Below are positions 20,557 to 32,975 of a stretch of 35,464 nt of DNA, one piece after another. This stretch comes from Clostridia bacterium. Lineage in GTDB: Bacteria; Bacillota_A; Clostridia; Christensenellales; Borkfalkiaceae. Below the pieces are notes generated by a model. That model saw only the letters and a list, made by a program, of their open reading frames with translations, made no database searches and was not told the origin of the DNA. Position 1 is the stretch's first letter; each line of letters opens with the position of its first letter. Both the position numbers and the translations under genes were made by a program. Where the stretch lies: contig JAFVQP010000185.1 in NCBI GenBank assembly GCA_017504735.1, positions 1 to 35,464 of the forward strand, written 5' to 3'.

Positions 20557-23292
20557 TTAATATTTATACACGGTTATTTTTACAGGCCAAGTCACTACGG
20601 TATCCCATTGCCAATCGGCAGGGAAGTTGTTTGACCAACCGCCATTTAACGAATTCACCATAAACCAAGTATTACCATCGTTTGTGTATCCGTATTCCGC
20701 CAAAATATCCGCAATGGTAACGGTCGTAGGATAGGTTTTCGTGCCCTTTTCCGTTTCGCCATCGTTACCTTGTTCAAAGATACTAACCGCTACGGTTTTA
20801 CGCGTACCGATAAGGCTATATAGCGTTCTATAATTGCTTGCAGTGTCGTAATAATCGTACATATCGGGAACAATATAGTTCAAAATGGTATCCGCGGTCA
20901 CTTCAAATTCCCCATTAGGGCCTTTGGCAATCCACGTAAAATCATCAAACTTGTCAAGGTCTTCCTCCGTATCAACATACGTTTCATACGCCGTTTTTGC
21001 ATTTATCGACCAATCCCAAGAGAATGCGTTGTTGAAATCATACTCGCTACCAAAAATCATTTCATCGCCGTATTGATTTACAAAGGTAAAGTTTGCATAC
21101 ACTTTTCTTGCCTCAATAACAATGTTCAGCTCACTTTCACCAAGTTTTTCATACAATAAACCGCTTTCTTCCCAGTAATACTCACTGCCCCAGCCAAGTT
21201 TCCAAGCGTAAGCGCGATAGGTATAGTTTAACCCAAGCGCTTCCACAATCGCAGGCATCGTCACGCCACCATAGAAAGTAAGACTTTTCGATTTTTCCTC
21301 TTCCCCTGCGGCGCGCACGTCTACGTTCACACGATAAATAGGGCGGACTTTTATGGAAATATTTTTGTACTGAGGGTTGATTTCATACTCTGCGAAAATC
21401 TTTTCGCTATCGCCGTAATCAAGCACTTTACCATTCACCGTAATTTCATAGTTCATCCAGTCAATGTAATACCCACTCATTTCCTGCACAAGCTGATGAA
21501 TGGTCATAGGCATAGAATAGGTTTGTTCGTAAAGTTCCGATGCCATATGCCCCCTATTCATAAAATCAAGAGTTACGGTATAACCTGCCGTTAAAACGTC
21601 CGTTTTAATCATGAGCATTTTATATGCATACTCGAAAAATACATCACCGCCATAAAGAGGAAAAAAATGACTGTTCGGCGAATCGGGATACAAGAAGAAC
21701 ATATACTCGTTTTCATAAATGTTATCATTGTCAAAATCGGAGGATAAGTAGATGCGAATAAACTCACCTGCCTTCATATCCAAGCCTATTTCGTAATTTG
21801 ACGTCGTTTCCGTCACGCCGTCGTATTTCAACACGTTAATCGTACGTGAAGTGGGTTTTTCAGGCTCTACGTAAATATAACCGTAAATTTCAATATCGCG
21901 CACCCAAGCCGTGTTGATATCAAAGCTTACCATTTGCGATTCTTTTTCCGTCCACGTATAATCGGACATTTTAAGTTTATTCTGCGCGCAGTATTTTGCA
22001 ATCGCATCGCGCATCGTTACGGGACGGGTGTAGTTGTAACTGATTTTTTCCTGCCCTTCGATATACACAGTTAATGTAAATTCGGGAAGTTCCACGTCTT
22101 GGGTTACATCCACGCAAACCACCGCACATTCTTTGGTCAAAACAGTATCTTCGCTTACTTGCATGCCGTCCATATAGTAGTGGAAGGCGTAATCGGGATT
22201 GTCACCATAACAGAAATTGTAAGCATCTCTTATCGTCGTCCCAGTTGTTACTTCACAATGATTATCTTTGCCCCACGCGCCGTTTAACTCACCCATTTCC
22301 GAGTAGTCATATCCCTCTACAGAAGGCATATACACCGTAAATTCGGTGGGAAGGACCTCTTCCATCCCTCCGTCGCCATCACAGTTATACACAAAACACA
22401 ATAAGCTAGATCCCGTCGTATAGGTGCTATCCAAGCGTTCGGTGTAGCCAGCCTCTACAAAATAACCTTTCGTGATAGCTTCCGCGTAAGGCATTTCAAA
22501 TGCACCCGTACTATGCATCCAGTTGACAAAATCTTCAATACATACTTCCCAAGGGAAGGGCACACATGCATCCATCCAATCGGGATTTAAAGGGTCTTCA
22601 CACACGCAAATACCGATATTCATCCCTGCACCGCTCGGTGTGAAATTGATATTAAATTGTTTCGTGTTTGCAGATAACGATTGCGACAAGATACTGTCAC
22701 CATATTGCAAACGAGAGCCAATTTGCCAAAAAGCCCCCCTAAAGAACTCCTCTTGATAGTAATATTCACTCTCCTCCATATAACCGTGCGCTTTGTTGTA
22801 AACCGCAACAATACCATCCATATGTTCAGCGAAAAAGTCGTTTAAGGTTGCATTTTTATCCACCAAGCCACTATACGTTAAGGGCGTATTCTCTTCCGTC
22901 TGAATGGTGTAAAAATACACGGTTGCCAACATTTTTCCTGCAGGAATATCACTATCTTCTCCATCGTCTGGATTTTCACTGGTTTCAGGGCTAGAGTTTT
23001 CAGGTTCTTCCGATGTCTCAGGCGTACTGCTTTCGGGTTCTTTGCTAGTGTTTGTATCACCATCATCTACACTTTCACTACTCCCCGTACTTTCAGAAGA
23101 ATTTTCTTCTTGGTTCGAGTTTTCCTCTTCCACTTTAGACGAAGCTTCTTCCGTTTGAGTACCGTCAGCAACGGATTGTGTAGAATCGCTTACCATAGAA
23201 ACGTCGTTCGTTCCCCCAGGCATGCTACACGCCGCCACACCCACGCACAAAATGCTGCAAACAGCCAAAATCAACAGTTTGATTTTTTTCAT
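20557..23292 (-). CDS. large surface lipoprotein made of tandem beta-rich repeats
   Basis: This 911-residue exported lipoprotein has the signal MKKIKLLILA..., lipobox VAAC and the lipidated Cys at residue 22. Residues 40-120 are a Ser/Glu/Thr-rich, cell-wall-spanning linker. The rest consists of about eight divergent units of 75-100 residues. Each starts with a strand of type xTVxVxxxG, then a helix-start motif (VTMRDAIAKY, TIRDAYNFCY, MTIHQLVQEM, VTIADILAEYGY) and a terminal hydrophobic strand. This resembles beta-grasp or DUF4430-like adhesion modules. No catalytic motif is visible. A role in binding a polymer, cobalamin or host ligand is possible but unproven. The gene is monocistronic, with its own consensus promoter and terminator. 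The start ATG 23292 has AAGGGG about 9 bp upstream. Confidence 0.85.
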   Translation of the reverse strand: MKKIKLLILAVCSILCVGVAACSMPGGTNDVSMVSDSTQSVADGTQTEEASSKVEEENSNQEENSSESTGSSESVDDGDTNTSKEPESSTPETSEEPENSSPETSENPDDGEDSDIPAGKMLATVYFYTIQTEENTPLTYSGLVDKNATLNDFFAEHMDGIVAVYNKAHGYMEESEYYYQEEFFRGAFWQIGSRLQYGDSILSQSLSANTKQFNINFTPSGAGMNIGICVCEDPLNPDWMDACVPFPWEVCIEDFVNWMHSTGAFEMPYAEAITKGYFVEAGYTERLDSTYTTGSSLLCFVYNCDGDGGMEEVLPTEFTVYMPSVEGYDYSEMGELNGAWGKDNHCEVTTGTTIRDAYNFCYGDNPDYAFHYYMDGMQVSEDTVLTKECAVVCVDVTQDVELPEFTLTVYIEGQEKISYNYTRPVTMRDAIAKYCAQNKLKMSDYTWTEKESQMVSFDINTAWVRDIEIYGYIYVEPEKPTSRTINVLKYDGVTETTSNYEIGLDMKAGEFIRIYLSSDFDNDNIYENEYMFFLYPDSPNSHFFPLYGGDVFFEYAYKMLMIKTDVLTAGYTVTLDFMNRGHMASELYEQTYSMPMTIHQLVQEMSGYYIDWMNYEITVNGKVLDYGDSEKIFAEYEINPQYKNISIKVRPIYRVNVDVRAAGEEEKSKSLTFYGGVTMPAIVEALGLNYTYRAYAWKLGWGSEYYWEESGLLYEKLGESELNIVIEARKVYANFTFVNQYGDEMIFGSEYDFNNAFSWDWSINAKTAYETYVDTEEDLDKFDDFTWIAKGPNGEFEVTADTILNYIVPDMYDYYDTASNYRTLYSLIGTRKTVAVSIFEQGNDGETEKGTKTYPTTVTIADILAEYGYTNDGNTWFMVNSLNGGWSNNFPADWQWDTVVTWPVKITVYKY

Positions 23293-23420: not shown

Positions 23421-23451
23421 GAAAAAACAACCCCTGCCAACCTGACAGGGG
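23421..23451 (-). terminator. rho-independent terminator of the candidate ncRNA
   Basis: On the minus strand, CCCCTGTC pairs with GGCAGGGG (one G-T pair), with a 5-nt loop, followed by TTGTTTTTT. Confidence 0.85.
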
Positions 23452-24073
23452 TATATTTCTTTATTAAGTTGTAAGAATGCAATCTTTCTCTCTTTATTAT
23501 CCGTGTCTTTTTGAACTTAATTTCCTTGTGGTCTTCCCACGCTACTATTACGGATATCTATTTATTTGCACTCCTCACATATTACGTTCATTGGACTGTT
23601 ACCTCGCTTTCTCTTCTTTGTTAAAGTACCTTCTAGACGTAGGAATTGAAATCATCTCTCCGTACCTCCTTTAACAAATTTTCTAAATCTCTGCCGACCT
23701 CCCGTCGGTAGGGAGTTTACGTGTACGTCGGAGTATCCCCGTCCTTTTTAAGTTTTCTCGAAGTTACAACGGTCATGGTCGTGTACCTCCTTTTCACCTA
23801 TTTCCCGTTTCTCTCGTTCCACGGTTACGCTTTCCGAGTATTGCCGAAGCCTTCTTTACGACTTCTTGGTTAGTATTAGGTTTCTCTTTTAGGCTTCCGC
23901 CTCCAAATGGGAAGGAATCATCGCTTTTTGTACCCTCCTTTCTTTTAGTCCTTTGCCGTATCCCTACGGCACCCTGCCAACCCTCTCTCTTGTTGGCGAT
24001 GTTTTATTTGTTCATCGGTTTGCCCTCTTTTTGAAGGTTTGAAACATTTTTTTGTTTGTTTCTTTCTCTTTGT
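23424..24073 (-). ncRNA. candidate large structured non-coding RNA, about 640 nt, family not recognised
   Basis: The 965-bp gap between two genes holds a promoter with UP element (24080-24107) and a terminator (23421-23451) bracketing a purine-rich minus-strand transcript. No frame is open with a start for more than 20 codons. Local hairpins on the RNA are: GATG/CATC (23998-24001 with 24013-24016), GCCAAC/GTTGGC (23976-23981 with 23992-23997), a 7-bp stem with GGGA loop (23954-23971), AGGC-GGAA-GCCT (23891-23902), and CCGAC/GTCGG (23694-23708), which competes with CTCCC/GGGAG (23699-23715). Two loops are GNRA-type, common in ornate RNAs. The size matches the ROOL/OLE/GOLLD class, but I cannot match the sequence to any family. 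Three AAAGGAGG(G)TAC motifs could instead be ribosome binding sites of micro-ORFs. Confidence 0.6.
23562..23921 (-). other. four micro-ORFs behind Shine-Dalgarno-like motifs inside the candidate ncRNA
   Basis: On the minus strand, ATG codons follow purine-rich motifs. 23889-23921 encodes 10 residues behind AAAGGAGGGTAC. 23717-23776 encodes 19 residues (MTVVTSRKLKKDGDTPTYT) behind AAAGGAGGTAC. 23599-23655 encodes 18 residues (MISIPTSRRYFNKEEKAR) behind the same 11-mer. 23562-23591 encodes 9 residues behind GAGG. The two middle ones have ideal 9-bp spacing and both are basic. Their number and spacing are striking, but each is short enough to arise by chance in a purine-rich RNA. They may be leader peptides, small proteins or accidental. 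Confidence 0.3.
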
Positions 24074-24079
24074 AGCTTT

Positions 24080-24107
24080 ATTATAGCACAAATTTTTCAT
24101 TTGTCAA
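24080..24107 (-). promoter_or_regulatory. consensus promoter with rRNA-like UP element driving the candidate ncRNA
   Basis: On the minus strand, TTGACA (24102-24107), 16 bp and TATAAT (24080-24085), start near 24073. Directly upstream are alternating A and T tracts (AAAAATTTTTCAAAAA, about 24112-24127), close to the UP-element pattern bound by RNA polymerase alpha subunits. The remaining 24128-24210 is AT-rich with no feature I can support. Confidence 0.85.
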
Positions 24108-24210
24108 GGGGTTTTTGAAAAATTTTTGATATTTTTTTATGCAACTTTTAGATTTTTTCAATTTATAATTTCGATTGTACTGCTTTCCACTATTAATTTT
24201 ACTGATTTTA

Positions 24211-24257: not shown

Positions 24258-25259
24258 TTAAATTTTCTTTGCAAAACGGTTTAAAAGTTCCTTATCCTGC
24301 AACAACACGCCGCCGCCTAAAACGGTCACAAATTGCGGTTCTTCCGTGATGTGATAACGCATATTCAAGCTTCCTGCGATGTATTGCGGGGCTTGCGTCA
24401 TTTTCATTACGCCACCCGACAGATATGCGCCATTGCGGTGTACCGCCGCCGCTACCTCTGCAGGTAAATGTTTCAAAACGCCCACAGCATATCCTAAAAT
24501 TTGATCCACACACGCGCGAATAGCCGGCTTTAAGTGCATTGACTGCACCGATTTGGATGCTGGTTGATAATCTTCTGTGGAGCTGCCTTCCACCACCATT
24601 GCGCCGCCCGACCCCGCCGCCAAGGATCCGATATTGTTTTTCACCTTTTCAGCCGTCAACTCACCGATGGTCAAATGATGCTCTTCGCGCATCGTTTTCA
24701 TAATACTCTTGTCAATTCTCGCACCGCCGATATTCAGGGCAATCCCTGCAATAATGCCGTTGGCGGAGATTACCGCCGCATTGGCTACGCCGCCGCCGAT
24801 ATCCAAACAAAAAATAGGTTCCGTTTCACTAAGCGCCGCGCCGCCGCCCAAAGCCGCCAAGTATGGCTGTTCGACAAAGCGCACTTTGCGCAAATCGCAC
24901 TCTTCCGCCAAAGCGACGTATTCATTCAACTGTTCATCGCCCAAACCGCAAGGAATACTAATGACAATCAACGCCTTTTTCAATGCCGATTTTGCGATAC
25001 CGATACGCGACAAAAATTCCTGTAACATCTTTGTCGCCAACGCTCTATCCACAATAATACCATCTTGAATGGGTTTTACAATTTGGGTATATTCCGCCGT
25101 TTTGCCGATTAAATTTTTCGCCTCTTTACCGATCGCCTTGATTTCCTGACCGTCGTTTACGGCAATACAGGAAGGCTCGGCAAGGACAATACCGCTGTTG
25201 GTGTCCGCGCGGTAAATTTTCGTCATACTTGACCCAAAATCGATTGCCAGTTTAATCAT
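24258..25259 (-). CDS. MreB-like actin/Hsp70-superfamily protein
   Basis: This 333-residue protein has actin-fold ATPase motifs. Phosphate-1 is DFGSSMTKIY at residues 7-16, phosphate-2 is DIGGGVANAAVIS near 150, and an adenosine-type motif AYLSGGV lies near 285. The length and the segment VKPIQDGIIVDRALATKML (MreB: RPLKDGVIADF) point to the MreB/Mbl family of rod-shape filaments. Phosphate-1 differs from the usual DLGTANT, so a divergent paralogue is likely. It would act under the cytoplasmic membrane in cell-wall patterning. The start ATG 25259 overlaps the last 8 bp of maf, with AAGGGAG as ribosome binding site inside maf. mreCD do not follow. The maf-mreB neighbourhood is common in bacteria, which supports the call. 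Confidence 0.82.
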   Translation of the reverse strand: MIKLAIDFGSSMTKIYRADTNSGIVLAEPSCIAVNDGQEIKAIGKEAKNLIGKTAEYTQIVKPIQDGIIVDRALATKMLQEFLSRIGIAKSALKKALIVISIPCGLGDEQLNEYVALAEECDLRKVRFVEQPYLAALGGGAALSETEPIFCLDIGGGVANAAVISANGIIAGIALNIGGARIDKSIMKTMREEHHLTIGELTAEKVKNNIGSLAAGSGGAMVVEGSSTEDYQPASKSVQSMHLKPAIRACVDQILGYAVGVLKHLPAEVAAAVHRNGAYLSGGVMKMTQAPQYIAGSLNMRYHITEEPQFVTVLGGGVLLQDKELLNRFAKKI

Positions 25260-29570: not shown

Positions 29571-32500
29571 ATGAGAACAACTAACAACAACCGCAAGAGC
29601 AGATTTCTTGCATTCCTTTTATCGGTAATGATGGTATCGTCCGCAGGCGCAATTTTTGCGTCCTGTAAGGACGGCGGAGAAGATTCCTCTTCTTCCTCTT
29701 CCAGCACTTCCGAAGAAACGGGAGCTACCACAAAAGATGAAGGTGAAATTAAAAACGCAAGCTTTAACTTCACCAAACCTACCAAGTCGACCGTTATCAG
29801 CACGTCCGTTACGGGTTGGAGCGCAGCTGCTTATTCCAACGCGTCCGGTTCTGCAGATTCCAACAAGGCAGACTGCGGTGTTATTAACACTGCTGATTGG
29901 GAATATTGGACAACGGCTAAGTTTGAAAAAGCTGATTTGGAAAAGATGACCGAAGCAGAAGCTATCGAAAAGTGGGACGACTTCAACGTAAAAGACAAGC
30001 TTGCTTATTACGAAATTTGGAAAAATAACAACAAGGATAAAACGATTTCCAAGGATTTCAAGAAATACGAATCCGGTATCAACTCCCTTGATAAAGAAAT
30101 CGATATCCCTACCATTAAAAATCCTGAAACTGCACCTGGTTCGGATGAAGATGATACCAACGTATTGATGATCCACAACCACAACTACGTATCCGGCAAG
30201 AAGGATCAATTGATGGGTACGGCAAGAAAATATACGTCTTCCTCTACCGTTACTATCCCTGCAGGTCAAGCGAAGAAAGTATCCGTTTGGGTATATACCG
30301 ACGCTCTTCAATCGTTGGCAAGCGACGGCACCGTACAGGATGCTGTTGGTAAGGGTGCGTATATCAGCGTAAACCACTCGGTTGGCGGCAAAACCCTTGA
30401 TGCTTACGAAGTAAAGAACATCAACACGAACGGTAAATGGAAAGAATATACCTTCGTGATCAAAGGCTCGTACTACGCAGACACCACCTTCTCGTTGGTA
30501 CTCGGTCTTGGTCAAGGTACGAAATCCGACCGTTTGGATTATGTAAACGGTTACGCATTCTTCGATAATATCACCGTAAGCGAAGTAGAGGATTTCGAAA
30601 CGGAAACGACAGGTTTGACTGCCGCTACCCTCGAAAGCGAAAAATTCGACAAGACGGTTGACGCATATAAGAACCCTACGGCGAATAAGTTCGCAATGAA
30701 CTTCTACGGTGCGCCCAATGCTTGGGATAATAAAAACTTCTCCGCAAGCACCGAATTTAAAGCAACGGCAAGCACCGACGGTTCTTCCGTGAACCCCGAA
30801 GCTGCTGCTACCGACGTGAAGAAGGTATTTGCAAATCAAGCAGCTATTGAAACGGAAAAGGCATCCAACGAATATCTCGGTTACGTTTACGACAACTTCT
30901 TCTATGGTGACGATTTTGTTGAAAACAATGAAGTATTGATGTTCCTTAGCACCAACGGTACCGCTTATACCGCTGAAAAAGCAATGACGTTTGAACTTCC
31001 TGCTACTCAGAAGTATATGGCGATTTCCTTCTTCGTGAAGACTTCCGATTTGAACGGCGGCACGGGCGCAGGCATCACGCTTGTAAACGGCTTGAATAAG
31101 ACTTCCTTCAACGCTATCGATACTTCCGCTTTGGCTGAAGACGAAAAGAACACCACCGACGGTTGGCAACAGGTATTCTTCTTCGTAGAAAGAGATGAAG
31201 ACGCTTCTGACAATGCAATCCCCTTCTATCTCAACCTCAACTACGGTCCTACCGACATCACCTCTTCCGCAACGAAGACCAGCTTTACGCAAGGCTTTGC
31301 AGCATTCTCCAAATTCACCGCATATACGGCAATGACCGAGCTTGAATATGAAGCAGCAGCAACCGGCACCTATGCAAAGAAAGTTGTTTTGAAAGAAGCG
31401 GAAGAAGACAAGGCTGAAGGCAACAACGGTTTCGACAGCGCAGTAGGCGTGCCTTCCGGCGCATTGGAAGATGGTCTTGCAAACCCTCAAAACTACAAGG
31501 GTGTTTACAACGACAACTACCGCGTAAAATTGCCTGAAACGGCTAGCGATTTCAACGACGAACTCTCGAAGCGTACGTACAACAACTACGCAGGCCTGGC
31601 AGGTTTGTTGAATAGAGAATATTTCGCAAACTACACCACGGAAAAGTGGGAAGACCATTTCGGCGATGCAACCCAACCCCTCGTTATTGTAAACGATAAA
31701 AACGCAACGAAGTCCTACGGTTTCATCAGCTCCGCAAAATCTACCGCAGATGAATACACGGCAATTTCTCTTCGTGTGAAGACGGTAAATGCACTTGCTT
31801 CCGTATATCTTGTAGATATGGACGACGAATCTCGTCAATCGATGCTCTCCGTAAGCAGAGGCCTTACCTACTGGTACGATGACGAAGGCAACGTTTGCAC
31901 GGGCGATCCTTCCAAGAACAGCACGACGATTGCATTTAAACTTCAAAAGAACGGTTTGTACAAGGCAAACAAGAACTGGGATGGCTACGACAAGCTCAGC
32001 AGCGAATTGAAAGAAGCTTACTTTGCAAACCTTTCCGCTTATACGTTAAAAGACGGCATCTACTATGCAGCTGACAACAGCGCAAGCCACAGCTACGAAA
32101 AGTACGATTGGAACCGCGAAGTATTCTATACGGGTACGGACGGTATCTACACCGAAGCAAACAACGGCGGCGTACAAGTTTTCGACCTCGCGGACATCAC
32201 CAAATCCGTAGGTGCAAATGGTATTTTGGAAGCTCGTTACCTTCCTGAAGACAAGCAGGAATTGAAGATTGAAAAGATTGATACGAAGGGCGAATGGGCT
32301 TACGTAACCTTCTACATCCGTAAGGGTGCAAACGCAAAGAACTATCGTTTGGAAGTTTGGAGCGGTACGAGAGATGGTGAAACCGTAAACACGACCGCAG
32401 GCGGCTACGTTGCATTCGACACCAACAACCCTGGTACGGCATCTGAAAACTTCGCATTGTCCGAAGATTACAAGGCTAACGAACAGGTTGAATGGTTCGA

Positions 32501-32975
32501 CGGCGTATTCTCCTACTTCGACACCGACAAGCACGTAAGATACAATGCTGAACGCGACGAAAAGAAGATCGGTAACCTTTACGCTGAAAGCTACGTTCCC
32601 TCTTCCTTCTCGGAAAGCCTTGCTTACCTCGCTTACCTCAACTACGACGAAGACAACATCTACAACGTATTTGCTGACTACTCGGTATCCGATCAAACGG
32701 TTGTTGCAAAAGAACAATCCGACGATACGACCACCGATAGCAGCAAAGAGGAAGAAGAAACCGAAAGCGAATTGAACATTTGGCTCCTTGTAAGCTCGAT
32801 TTCAGTTGCAGGCGTTCTTGTTCTTGCAGTAGCAAGCATCATTGTTCGTAAAGTAATTGAAAACTACAAAAAGAAGCACGGTGCGAAAGCTCGTAAAACG
32901 GTAAAGGAAAAGAAAGCTCCGAAAGCGAAGAAAGTAGAAAAGACCGTTGACGAGGACAGCCCTTACAACGATTAA
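29571..32975 (+). CDS. 1134-residue surface protein anchored by both a lipid and a C-terminal TM helix
   Basis: The signal peptide ends in a lipobox IFASC with the lipidated Cys at residue 32. A Ser/Glu-rich linker follows to about residue 60. The body contains at least three jelly-roll-like modules. The first, at about 215-345, has VTIPAGQAKKVSVWVYTD and ends with YAFFDNITVSE, the strand pattern of carbohydrate-binding modules. Related modules lie at about 460-595 and 710-985. The C-terminus has an acidic Ser/Thr/Glu linker, a TM helix at about 1070-1092, and a Lys-rich tail of about 40 residues inside the cell. Having both anchors in one protein is unusual. No catalytic motif is visible; glycan binding is plausible. 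The start ATG 29571 has AAGGTGG about 6 bp upstream. It is monocistronic. Confidence 0.85.
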   Translation: MRTTNNNRKSRFLAFLLSVMMVSSAGAIFASCKDGGEDSSSSSSSTSEETGATTKDEGEIKNASFNFTKPTKSTVISTSVTGWSAAAYSNASGSADSNKADCGVINTADWEYWTTAKFEKADLEKMTEAEAIEKWDDFNVKDKLAYYEIWKNNNKDKTISKDFKKYESGINSLDKEIDIPTIKNPETAPGSDEDDTNVLMIHNHNYVSGKKDQLMGTARKYTSSSTVTIPAGQAKKVSVWVYTDALQSLASDGTVQDAVGKGAYISVNHSVGGKTLDAYEVKNINTNGKWKEYTFVIKGSYYADTTFSLVLGLGQGTKSDRLDYVNGYAFFDNITVSEVEDFETETTGLTAATLESEKFDKTVDAYKNPTANKFAMNFYGAPNAWDNKNFSASTEFKATASTDGSSVNPEAAATDVKKVFANQAAIETEKASNEYLGYVYDNFFYGDDFVENNEVLMFLSTNGTAYTAEKAMTFELPATQKYMAISFFVKTSDLNGGTGAGITLVNGLNKTSFNAIDTSALAEDEKNTTDGWQQVFFFVERDEDASDNAIPFYLNLNYGPTDITSSATKTSFTQGFAAFSKFTAYTAMTELEYEAAATGTYAKKVVLKEAEEDKAEGNNGFDSAVGVPSGALEDGLANPQNYKGVYNDNYRVKLPETASDFNDELSKRTYNNYAGLAGLLNREYFANYTTEKWEDHFGDATQPLVIVNDKNATKSYGFISSAKSTADEYTAISLRVKTVNALASVYLVDMDDESRQSMLSVSRGLTYWYDDEGNVCTGDPSKNSTTIAFKLQKNGLYKANKNWDGYDKLSSELKEAYFANLSAYTLKDGIYYAADNSASHSYEKYDWNREVFYTGTDGIYTEANNGGVQVFDLADITKSVGANGILEARYLPEDKQELKIEKIDTKGEWAYVTFYIRKGANAKNYRLEVWSGTRDGETVNTTAGGYVAFDTNNPGTASENFALSEDYKANEQVEWFDGVFSYFDTDKHVRYNAERDEKKIGNLYAESYVPSSFSESLAYLAYLNYDEDNIYNVFADYSVSDQTVVAKEQSDDTTTDSSKEEEETESELNIWLLVSSISVAGVLVLAVASIIVRKVIENYKKKHGAKARKTVKEKKAPKAKKVEKTVDEDSPYND

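Follow-up and report, generated by a model that had tools for sequence, protein, structure and literature searches.

What is encoded in an intergenic gap that holds no protein of normal length? The window analysed here, the whole 35,464-nucleotide contig JAFVQP010000185.1 (assembly GCA_017504735.1) of a Clostridia bacterium from the family Borkfalkiaceae, contains such a gap of 965 bases between an ORF of 911 aa and an MreB-like ORF, for which an initial annotation had proposed a discrete minus-strand transcription unit producing an undescribed large structured RNA. The outline of this unit is borne out by the features collected in Table 1, namely the strong promoter and its UP-like stretch, the latter also preceding the promoter in the homologues displayed, and a terminator hairpin that proved longer than the 8 bp first described. 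TTGACA and the TG before the -10 box are present in all 41 tabulated homologues, which were placed by using TATAAT as the anchor. As had been remarked, the RNA is purine-rich, with 40% A and 25% G over a stretch of 647 nt, and this stretch has a folding energy of -157 kcal/mol compared with -132 +/- 5 for 20 shuffled versions (z -4.9), none of which equalled it. From these signals transcription of the RNA appears probable. Blastn identified a likeness between the promoter stretch (24059-24137) and stretches in Dulem virus 36 and Monoglobus pectinilyticus; ordinary annotated genes lie behind the matching stretch in both, and the likeness looks like one of shared strong-promoter type, not of RNA homology.

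Table 1. Features of the predicted transcription unit and its flanking ORFs (window coordinates; codon ranges are those of the homologues).
Feature	Position	Strand	Remarks
911-aa ORF	20557-23292	-	Downstream of the RNA; own 12/12 promoter at 23370-23342
MreB-like ORF	24258-25259		
Candidate structured RNA	23424..24073	-	Predicted start ~24073, end in terminator T run; from sequence and homologues
UP-like stretch, A/T-rich	24109..24140	-	Upstream of the -35 box
Promoter	24080..24107	-	TTGACA-16-TATAAT, TG before -10; 12/12 consensus bases
5' hairpin P1	24041..24062	-	GAAAC...GUUUC; inner pairs vary on both sides (columns 24/39, 25/38)
Micro-ORF A	24004..24015	-	MNK*; 2-3 codons
Hairpin P2	23976..23997	-	GCCAAC...GUUGGC; columns 109-112 with 128-131, two-sided changes
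Hairpin P3	23954..23971	-	GGGA (GNRA) tetraloop; columns 140-143 with 150-153, up to 10 double changes
Shine-Dalgarno site of B	23933-23938	-	GGAGGG; can pair with CCUUCC (23910-23915) within ORF B
Micro-ORF B	23889..23921	-	MIPSHLEAEA*; 10 codons
Micro-ORF C	23717..23776	-	MTVVTSRKLKKDGDTPTYT*; Shine-Dalgarno GGAGG at 23786-23790; 9-20 codons
GUUAAAG beside Shine-Dalgarno site of D	23669-23675	-	Can pair with CUUUAAC (23620-23626) within ORF D
Micro-ORF D	23599..23655	-	MISIPTSRRYFNKEEKAR*; 13-21 codons
Micro-ORF E	23562..23591	-	MNVICEECK*; Shine-Dalgarno GAGG at 23602-23605; 8-11 codons
3' domain with ORF E	23462..23595	-	P_E, P_3dom and two inner hairpins; model R1
Closing helix P_E	23566-23575 with 23473-23482	-	Strand-swap test
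Long-range helix P_3dom	23550-23556 with 23498-23504	-	Strand-swap test
Conserved 3' element	23462..23472	-	ACAACUUAAUA (consensus ANAA[CU]UNAAUA), directly past P_E
Intrinsic terminator	23430..23452	-	10-pair hairpin, T run to ~23424; strands covary (z -10.2)

To collect further copies, the neighbouring MreB-like protein (Pfam MreB_Mbl) was aligned with 21 relatives and used as the query for a scan of genome contigs, which recovered 80 loci, many labelled Clostridia from ruminant and chicken gut; the same scan with the single MreB protein recovered none. At 31 of the 80 loci the mreB-like match ends 35-1571 bases away from the 5' end of the RNA, which is on the same strand as that gene in 29 and on the opposite strand in two. 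No match to the RNA was detected at the remaining 49, for several of them because the contig stops soon after mreB. Three loci (L015, L016 and L026) possess a close MreB-like neighbour and 5 kb of downstream sequence without the RNA. An nhmmer profile resulted in 45 non-redundant homologous loci, so that a proposal made from a single sequence now has a family behind it, with long alignments to the window ranging in identity from 83% down to ~62% and RNA lengths of roughly 300-860 nt. For the comparisons that follow, the table of ORFs comprises 41 of these loci, leaving out two matched at the promoter end only (L089, L095) and two at contig ends (L022, L112); alignment A2 additionally excludes L037, L084 and L086, A3 excludes L084 and L086, and A4 excludes L119, L047, L086, L084 and L037.

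The distribution of the RNA is narrow. A core pattern searched with at most two mismatches was found in 41 of 398 genomes of the family, four of these matches being chance-like (G222, G290, G383 and G519), and 52 of the 398 contained matches at E<=1e-3 to R1, the covariance model built on the 3' domain, with a single place per genome in 51; for 41 of the 52 the match reached E<=5e-9. Up to E 1, R1 matched 39 places in 92 sources. At E<=1e-4 the model matched 3 of 396 genomes across the order, all three already in the family list, and 1 of 391 across the class, the centre genome only. Because these wider searches add nothing beyond the family list, the predicted RNA is, within the reach of the R1 model and these samples, restricted to the family. 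An order-wide DNA search produced matches in 12 of 200 genomes, full-length in the centre genome and limited in the others to stretches of ~24-69 bases, mostly at the promoter end; the nhmmer profile subsequently recovered two loci of this search, L084 and L086, with matches at either end.

Comparison of the homologues revealed an array of compensatory changes. In the 5' part (38 sequences), RNAalifold recovered hairpins P1, P2 and P3 with double changes in 11 of 18 pairs, and the GGGA loop of P3 is kept in 37 of 38 aligned sequences over a stem that varies. This loop (GCCGUA-GGGA-UACGGC) is one of two GNRA-type hairpins in the initial annotation; the other (GGC-GGAA-GCC) has a loop of that type in the window and not in many homologues. 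The pair of mutually exclusive stems proposed there held up less well: judged by eye and uncounted, CCGAC/GTCGG recurs in many homologues and CTCCC/GGGAG does not, which leaves the alternative-stem switch unsupported. Two loci, L013 and L014, carry a second P3-like hairpin after P3 (GCCGTAGGGAGACGGC in L014, approximately columns 165-184 of A2), apparently a tandem duplication.

The poorly aligned 3' part yielded three pairs only with RNAalifold, and its structure of four helices was obtained from single-sequence folds mapped onto a shorter alignment. In a plain MAFFT alignment of 36 sequences, from which the helices were themselves partly derived, double changes occur in 22 of 25 pairs (14.9 in shuffled alignments), 73.7% of cells are paired (65.6% shuffled) and covariation reaches 0.295, compared with 0.183 in shuffled alignments and 0.063-0.150 in slid controls. 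The weakest measure was the number of further pair types (49 versus 44.9), which 26 of 500 shuffles reached. A refit of 39 sequences to the model, which favours the structure, gave 82.3% of cells paired, again 22 pairs with double changes and a covariation of 0.442. In a strand-swap test, each sequence's strand was paired with the partner strand from other species over 2000 permutations. Native P_E strands pair at -12.0 kcal/mol versus -7.7 when swapped (n=40, z -9.0), and a comparably strong preference was found for P_3dom (n=40, z -10.4) and for the terminator (z -10.2), with a smaller one for the two pairings beside the Shine-Dalgarno sites of D (SD-D; n=33, without L006 and L008, z -4.7) and B (SD-B; n=35, z -3.5). 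None of the 2000 permutations reached the native value for P_E, P_3dom, SD-D or SD-B, and two control pairings exhibited no enrichment (z +1.7 and -0.1). Of 42 sequences searched, 41 contain the element ANAA[CU]UNAAUA, directly past P_E, exactly once; the exception is L084, with no match. Taken together, these results leave us almost certain that the locus specifies a conserved structured RNA.

The initial annotation was correct in that no protein of normal length fits the unit; what it overlooked are five AUGs behind Shine-Dalgarno sites, which open tiny ORFs A to E in the window (family range about 2-21 codons). Among the 41 tabulated homologues, A was identified in 39, E in 40, and B and D in 35 each (D rows of L006 and L008 and E positions of L023, L106 and L030 set by hand), and a C-like ORF in 28 of the 45 nhmmer matches. 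The first stop in frame 0 falls within the expected range for A in 38 of 39, for B in 30 of 35 and for E in 40 of 40, compared with 0-3 in the shifted frames, and the five B cases out of range are versions of 15-19 codons. For D the counts are 35 of 35 versus 1 and 4, a comparison biased by the choice of starts, which were selected by Shine-Dalgarno score among those with a stop at most 12 nt beyond the start of E. Stops changed identity while remaining stops at least 12 times in A, 8 times in B and 5 times in E, and ORF length changed at least 8 times in A and 10 times in E, as counted on a quick tree built with the ORF columns included. In all 35 cases the position of the D stop ranges between 18 bases ahead of the E start and an overlap of 4 bases with that start, as in translational coupling. 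Start, frame and stop of these predicted micro-ORFs are thus conserved while the letters change, most strongly for A and E. Such conservation makes translation of the micro-ORFs plausible in general, and for D and E at least we consider it very probable.

Departures from this arrangement are also of interest. L119 and L086 have no A, short versions have no C, and D is without an ATG in L162 and could not be located in L106. The middle part is missing from short versions of ~370-475 nt (L009, L010, L019, L047, L125 and L031). Five short versions (L019, L047, L125, L031 and L030) have B and D fused into one ORF (that of L125 and L047 was counted under both), and in L009 and L010 a single ORF starts with GTG instead of the ATG of D. 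Since the middle is missing where B and D are fused or replaced by the GTG ORF, the extra sequence of the long form appears to have been inserted between B and D, or the short form to have arisen by deletion. D runs in frame into E in L030, L164 and L167. Twelve weak places in 11 genomes (L156-L167) all possess TTGACA/TATAAT upstream and an E-like ORF, of 8-11 codons in ten and of 14 and 25 in the other two (the E ORFs of L158, L164 and L165, which the script did not list separately, were read by hand); by reading, A is missing in at least 7 of the 12, and L160 is not a new locus because it has the same place and sequence as L037. In three of these weak places (L156, L157 and L163) the TGA of D overlaps the ATG of E (ATGA), the classical coupling arrangement.

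How might covarying helices and conserved reading frames be reconciled in one molecule? We favour, at about an even chance, a stand-alone structured RNA gated by translation, in which ribosomes on D and E would open the 3' domain and expose ACAACUGAAUA. In this proposal selection would mainly keep the act of translation and not the peptide.

A different use of ribosomes, which we consider unlikely, is that of an abundant sponge or holding RNA, whose several strong initiation sites would load quickly terminating ribosomes for storage or buffering and whose helices would only shape the particle. The near-consensus Shine-Dalgarno cores (AAGGAGG before B in 31 of 35 and before D in 29 of 35), the consensus promoter and an A of 2-3 codons in 38 of 39 homologues would all suit such a function. 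A sponge, however, has no need for helices formed with an ORF's own nucleotides that can mask the B and D starts, nor does mere binding require constrained ORF lengths or account for the overlap of E with the closing helix.

Conservation of starts, frames and stops would equally be expected of a polycistronic mRNA for functional tiny peptides in which structure only tunes expression, and motifs are often retained, MIPSH.EA.A in B and an aromatic-basic core in D. The 26 versions of B with ten codons differ at codon positions 1, 2 and 3 by 0.25, 0.26 and 0.335, and this slight third-position excess makes some peptide constraint on B possible. The 24 nine-codon versions of E, in contrast, have no third-position excess (0.42/0.46/0.48). 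The conserved codons of B, D and E also lie in covarying helix strands, which can explain the motifs: codons 3-4 of B can pair with B's own Shine-Dalgarno site, the YFN codons of D can pair beside that of D, and the second half of E forms the 5' strand of P_E. This leaves the peptide explanation quite unlikely. The leading edge of an initiating ribosome lies at about +16. The distance from the A of the E AUG to P_E is 16 or 17 nt in 34 of 40 sequences, and P_E ends 1-6 nt before the E stop in 31 of 40 (outside that range in 9), with a weak negative correlation between helix end and stop position (-0.27) and, in a few rows, a computed duplex that extends past the stop. Given the lack of a third-position excess in E, the conserved codons within helices and these offsets, we infer that movement of ribosomes over the helix has been selected more than the peptide.

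It is improbable that the RNA is purely noncoding, with Shine-Dalgarno and AUG motifs that are structural and untranslated. Strong covariation, a strong promoter and the lack of a shared downstream gene would fit a noncoding RNA of this kind, but stops have stayed stops over at least 25 identity changes in A, B and E together, stop spacing is specific to the frame, and GTG has been exchanged for ATG.

Micro-ORFs overlapping helices are a hallmark of attenuators; in leader-peptide attenuators and in leaders that mask a Shine-Dalgarno site, a short ORF overlaps a helix and the position of the ribosome decides the fold. The window RNA resembles them in that its ORFs overlap helices which ribosome transit would disrupt, as the swap tests for P_E, SD-D and SD-B and the P_E offsets indicate, and it differs in having no common downstream gene, a terminator of its own, up to five ORFs and an E peptide that is not conserved. 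The nearest downstream ORF of >=120 aa was taken at 31 loci: one locus had none, and by blastp the ORFs of the other 30 form 23 unrelated groups, the largest comprising five loci. At five loci (L009, L010, L018, L020 and L021) these ORFs, of 653-690 aa, are mutually related and mark a small shared neighbourhood. The 911-aa ORF of the window has no Pfam match and no relationship to the ORFs that come first downstream of the RNA at the other loci compared; elsewhere in the window, an ORF of 1134 aa (29571-32975, plus strand) has no NCBIfam match. Despite those five related ORFs and the attenuator-like overlaps, a leader of the downstream gene that reads through the terminator is highly improbable in view of the RNA's own terminator, the separate promoter of the window's downstream ORF, the 23 groups of downstream ORFs, 11 of the 30 facing the opposite way, and the two copies of the RNA on the opposite strand from the mreB-like gene.

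Returning to translation gating, the following sequence of events would be consistent with the features above. The start regions of B and D may pair with nucleotides inside their own ORFs, while E traverses the 5' strand of P_E and mostly stops just past the helix. A ribosome initiating at E would fit beside closed P_E, and elongation to the E stop would open the helix and free the conserved ACAACUGAAUA element next to the terminator; were initiation to fall, P_E would re-form. If P_E opens and re-forms with initiation in this way, the RNA would read the translation capacity of the cell by presenting or hiding its 3' domain, and the exposed element might, as a guess, bind a protein or another RNA. 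Somewhat more tentatively, at a little under an even chance, we suggest a new kind of RNA machine, a self-contained and possibly trans-acting RNA whose fold, driven by ribosomes starting and stopping on its row of micro-ORFs, reports initiation capacity, with no useful protein made and no neighbour regulated.

These properties were compared with known RNAs. In the window, Rfam release 15 identified nothing at the gathering score. For the region itself there were eight sub-threshold matches up to E 10 (best E 1.5), none to ROOL, GOLLD, OLE, raiA or tmRNA, and for ten homologous loci three matches up to E 2 (best 0.11), none to ROOL, GOLLD, OLE or raiA, in agreement with the initial annotation, which had recognised no such class. 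The RNA resembles ROOL, GOLLD and OLE in its size range, stand-alone unit and rich structure, and differs in the absence of an Rfam match, in its conserved micro-ORFs, which the accessible portion of PMC12286853 does not mention for those RNAs, and in its frequent position near an mreB-like gene (31/80). Formation of a homo-oligomeric RNA particle characterises ROOL, GOLLD and OLE. PMC12286853 describes GOLLD as bound by ribosomes in pull-downs and ROOL as residing in phages or prophages, often near tRNAs; the window, in contrast, has no tRNA, no viral contig contained the one core pattern searched, and blastn against phages and plasmids returned one and two records, with matches of at most 79 bases. 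High expression is known for a large RNA of Lactobacillus salivarius, whose 520 nt can exceed 16S rRNA in expression (PMC5643018).

Among RNAs read by ribosomes, the Vibrio cholerae sRNA VcdRP is likewise a single RNA with regulatory and coding roles, encoding one small protein of 29 aa (PMC8672173), while the window RNA has several ORFs, each about 2-21 codons long, whose frames are conserved. Micro-ORF A recalls the two-codon minigene of axe-txe, which affects a toxin gene in cis (PMC8708949), but no such cis gene is present at the window RNA. Being partly read by ribosomes, the RNA also resembles tmRNA; as a replacement for tmRNA it was rejected, with a separate tmRNA above the cut-off in 14 of 16 genomes that carry the RNA and RF00023 unmatched in the window. 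Only matches above the cut-off were counted here because every one of the 14 control genomes also gives loose E-value matches. The open-licence literature, including the accessible portions of PMC12286853, PMC6429828, PMC8708949 and PMC5643018, yielded no description of such an RNA. The proposal of an undescribed large structured RNA therefore stands insofar as the unit is independent, structured and strongly promoted, and both homologues and covariation, whose absence the initial annotation had named as grounds for refutation, were found. Given Shine-Dalgarno-led micro-ORFs conserved as frames and the lack of an Rfam match, the reading of the RNA as simply noncoding, in the manner of ROOL, OLE or GOLLD, is not supported. 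The RNA sits between two known kinds and has the defining features of neither, and if any new RNA family counts, it would be a member of the 'large structured RNAs'.

It is usual to regard large bacterial RNAs as noncoding and to see micro-ORFs as the leaders of genes. Here, covarying helices and several conserved reading frames share nucleotides within a unit that ends at its own terminator. If the proposed gating is true, it would offer a new, testable explanation for other ribosome-binding RNAs of large size, and if ribosomes do switch the fold, the RNA would directly read out translation in a group of gut bacteria represented here mostly by metagenome assemblies.
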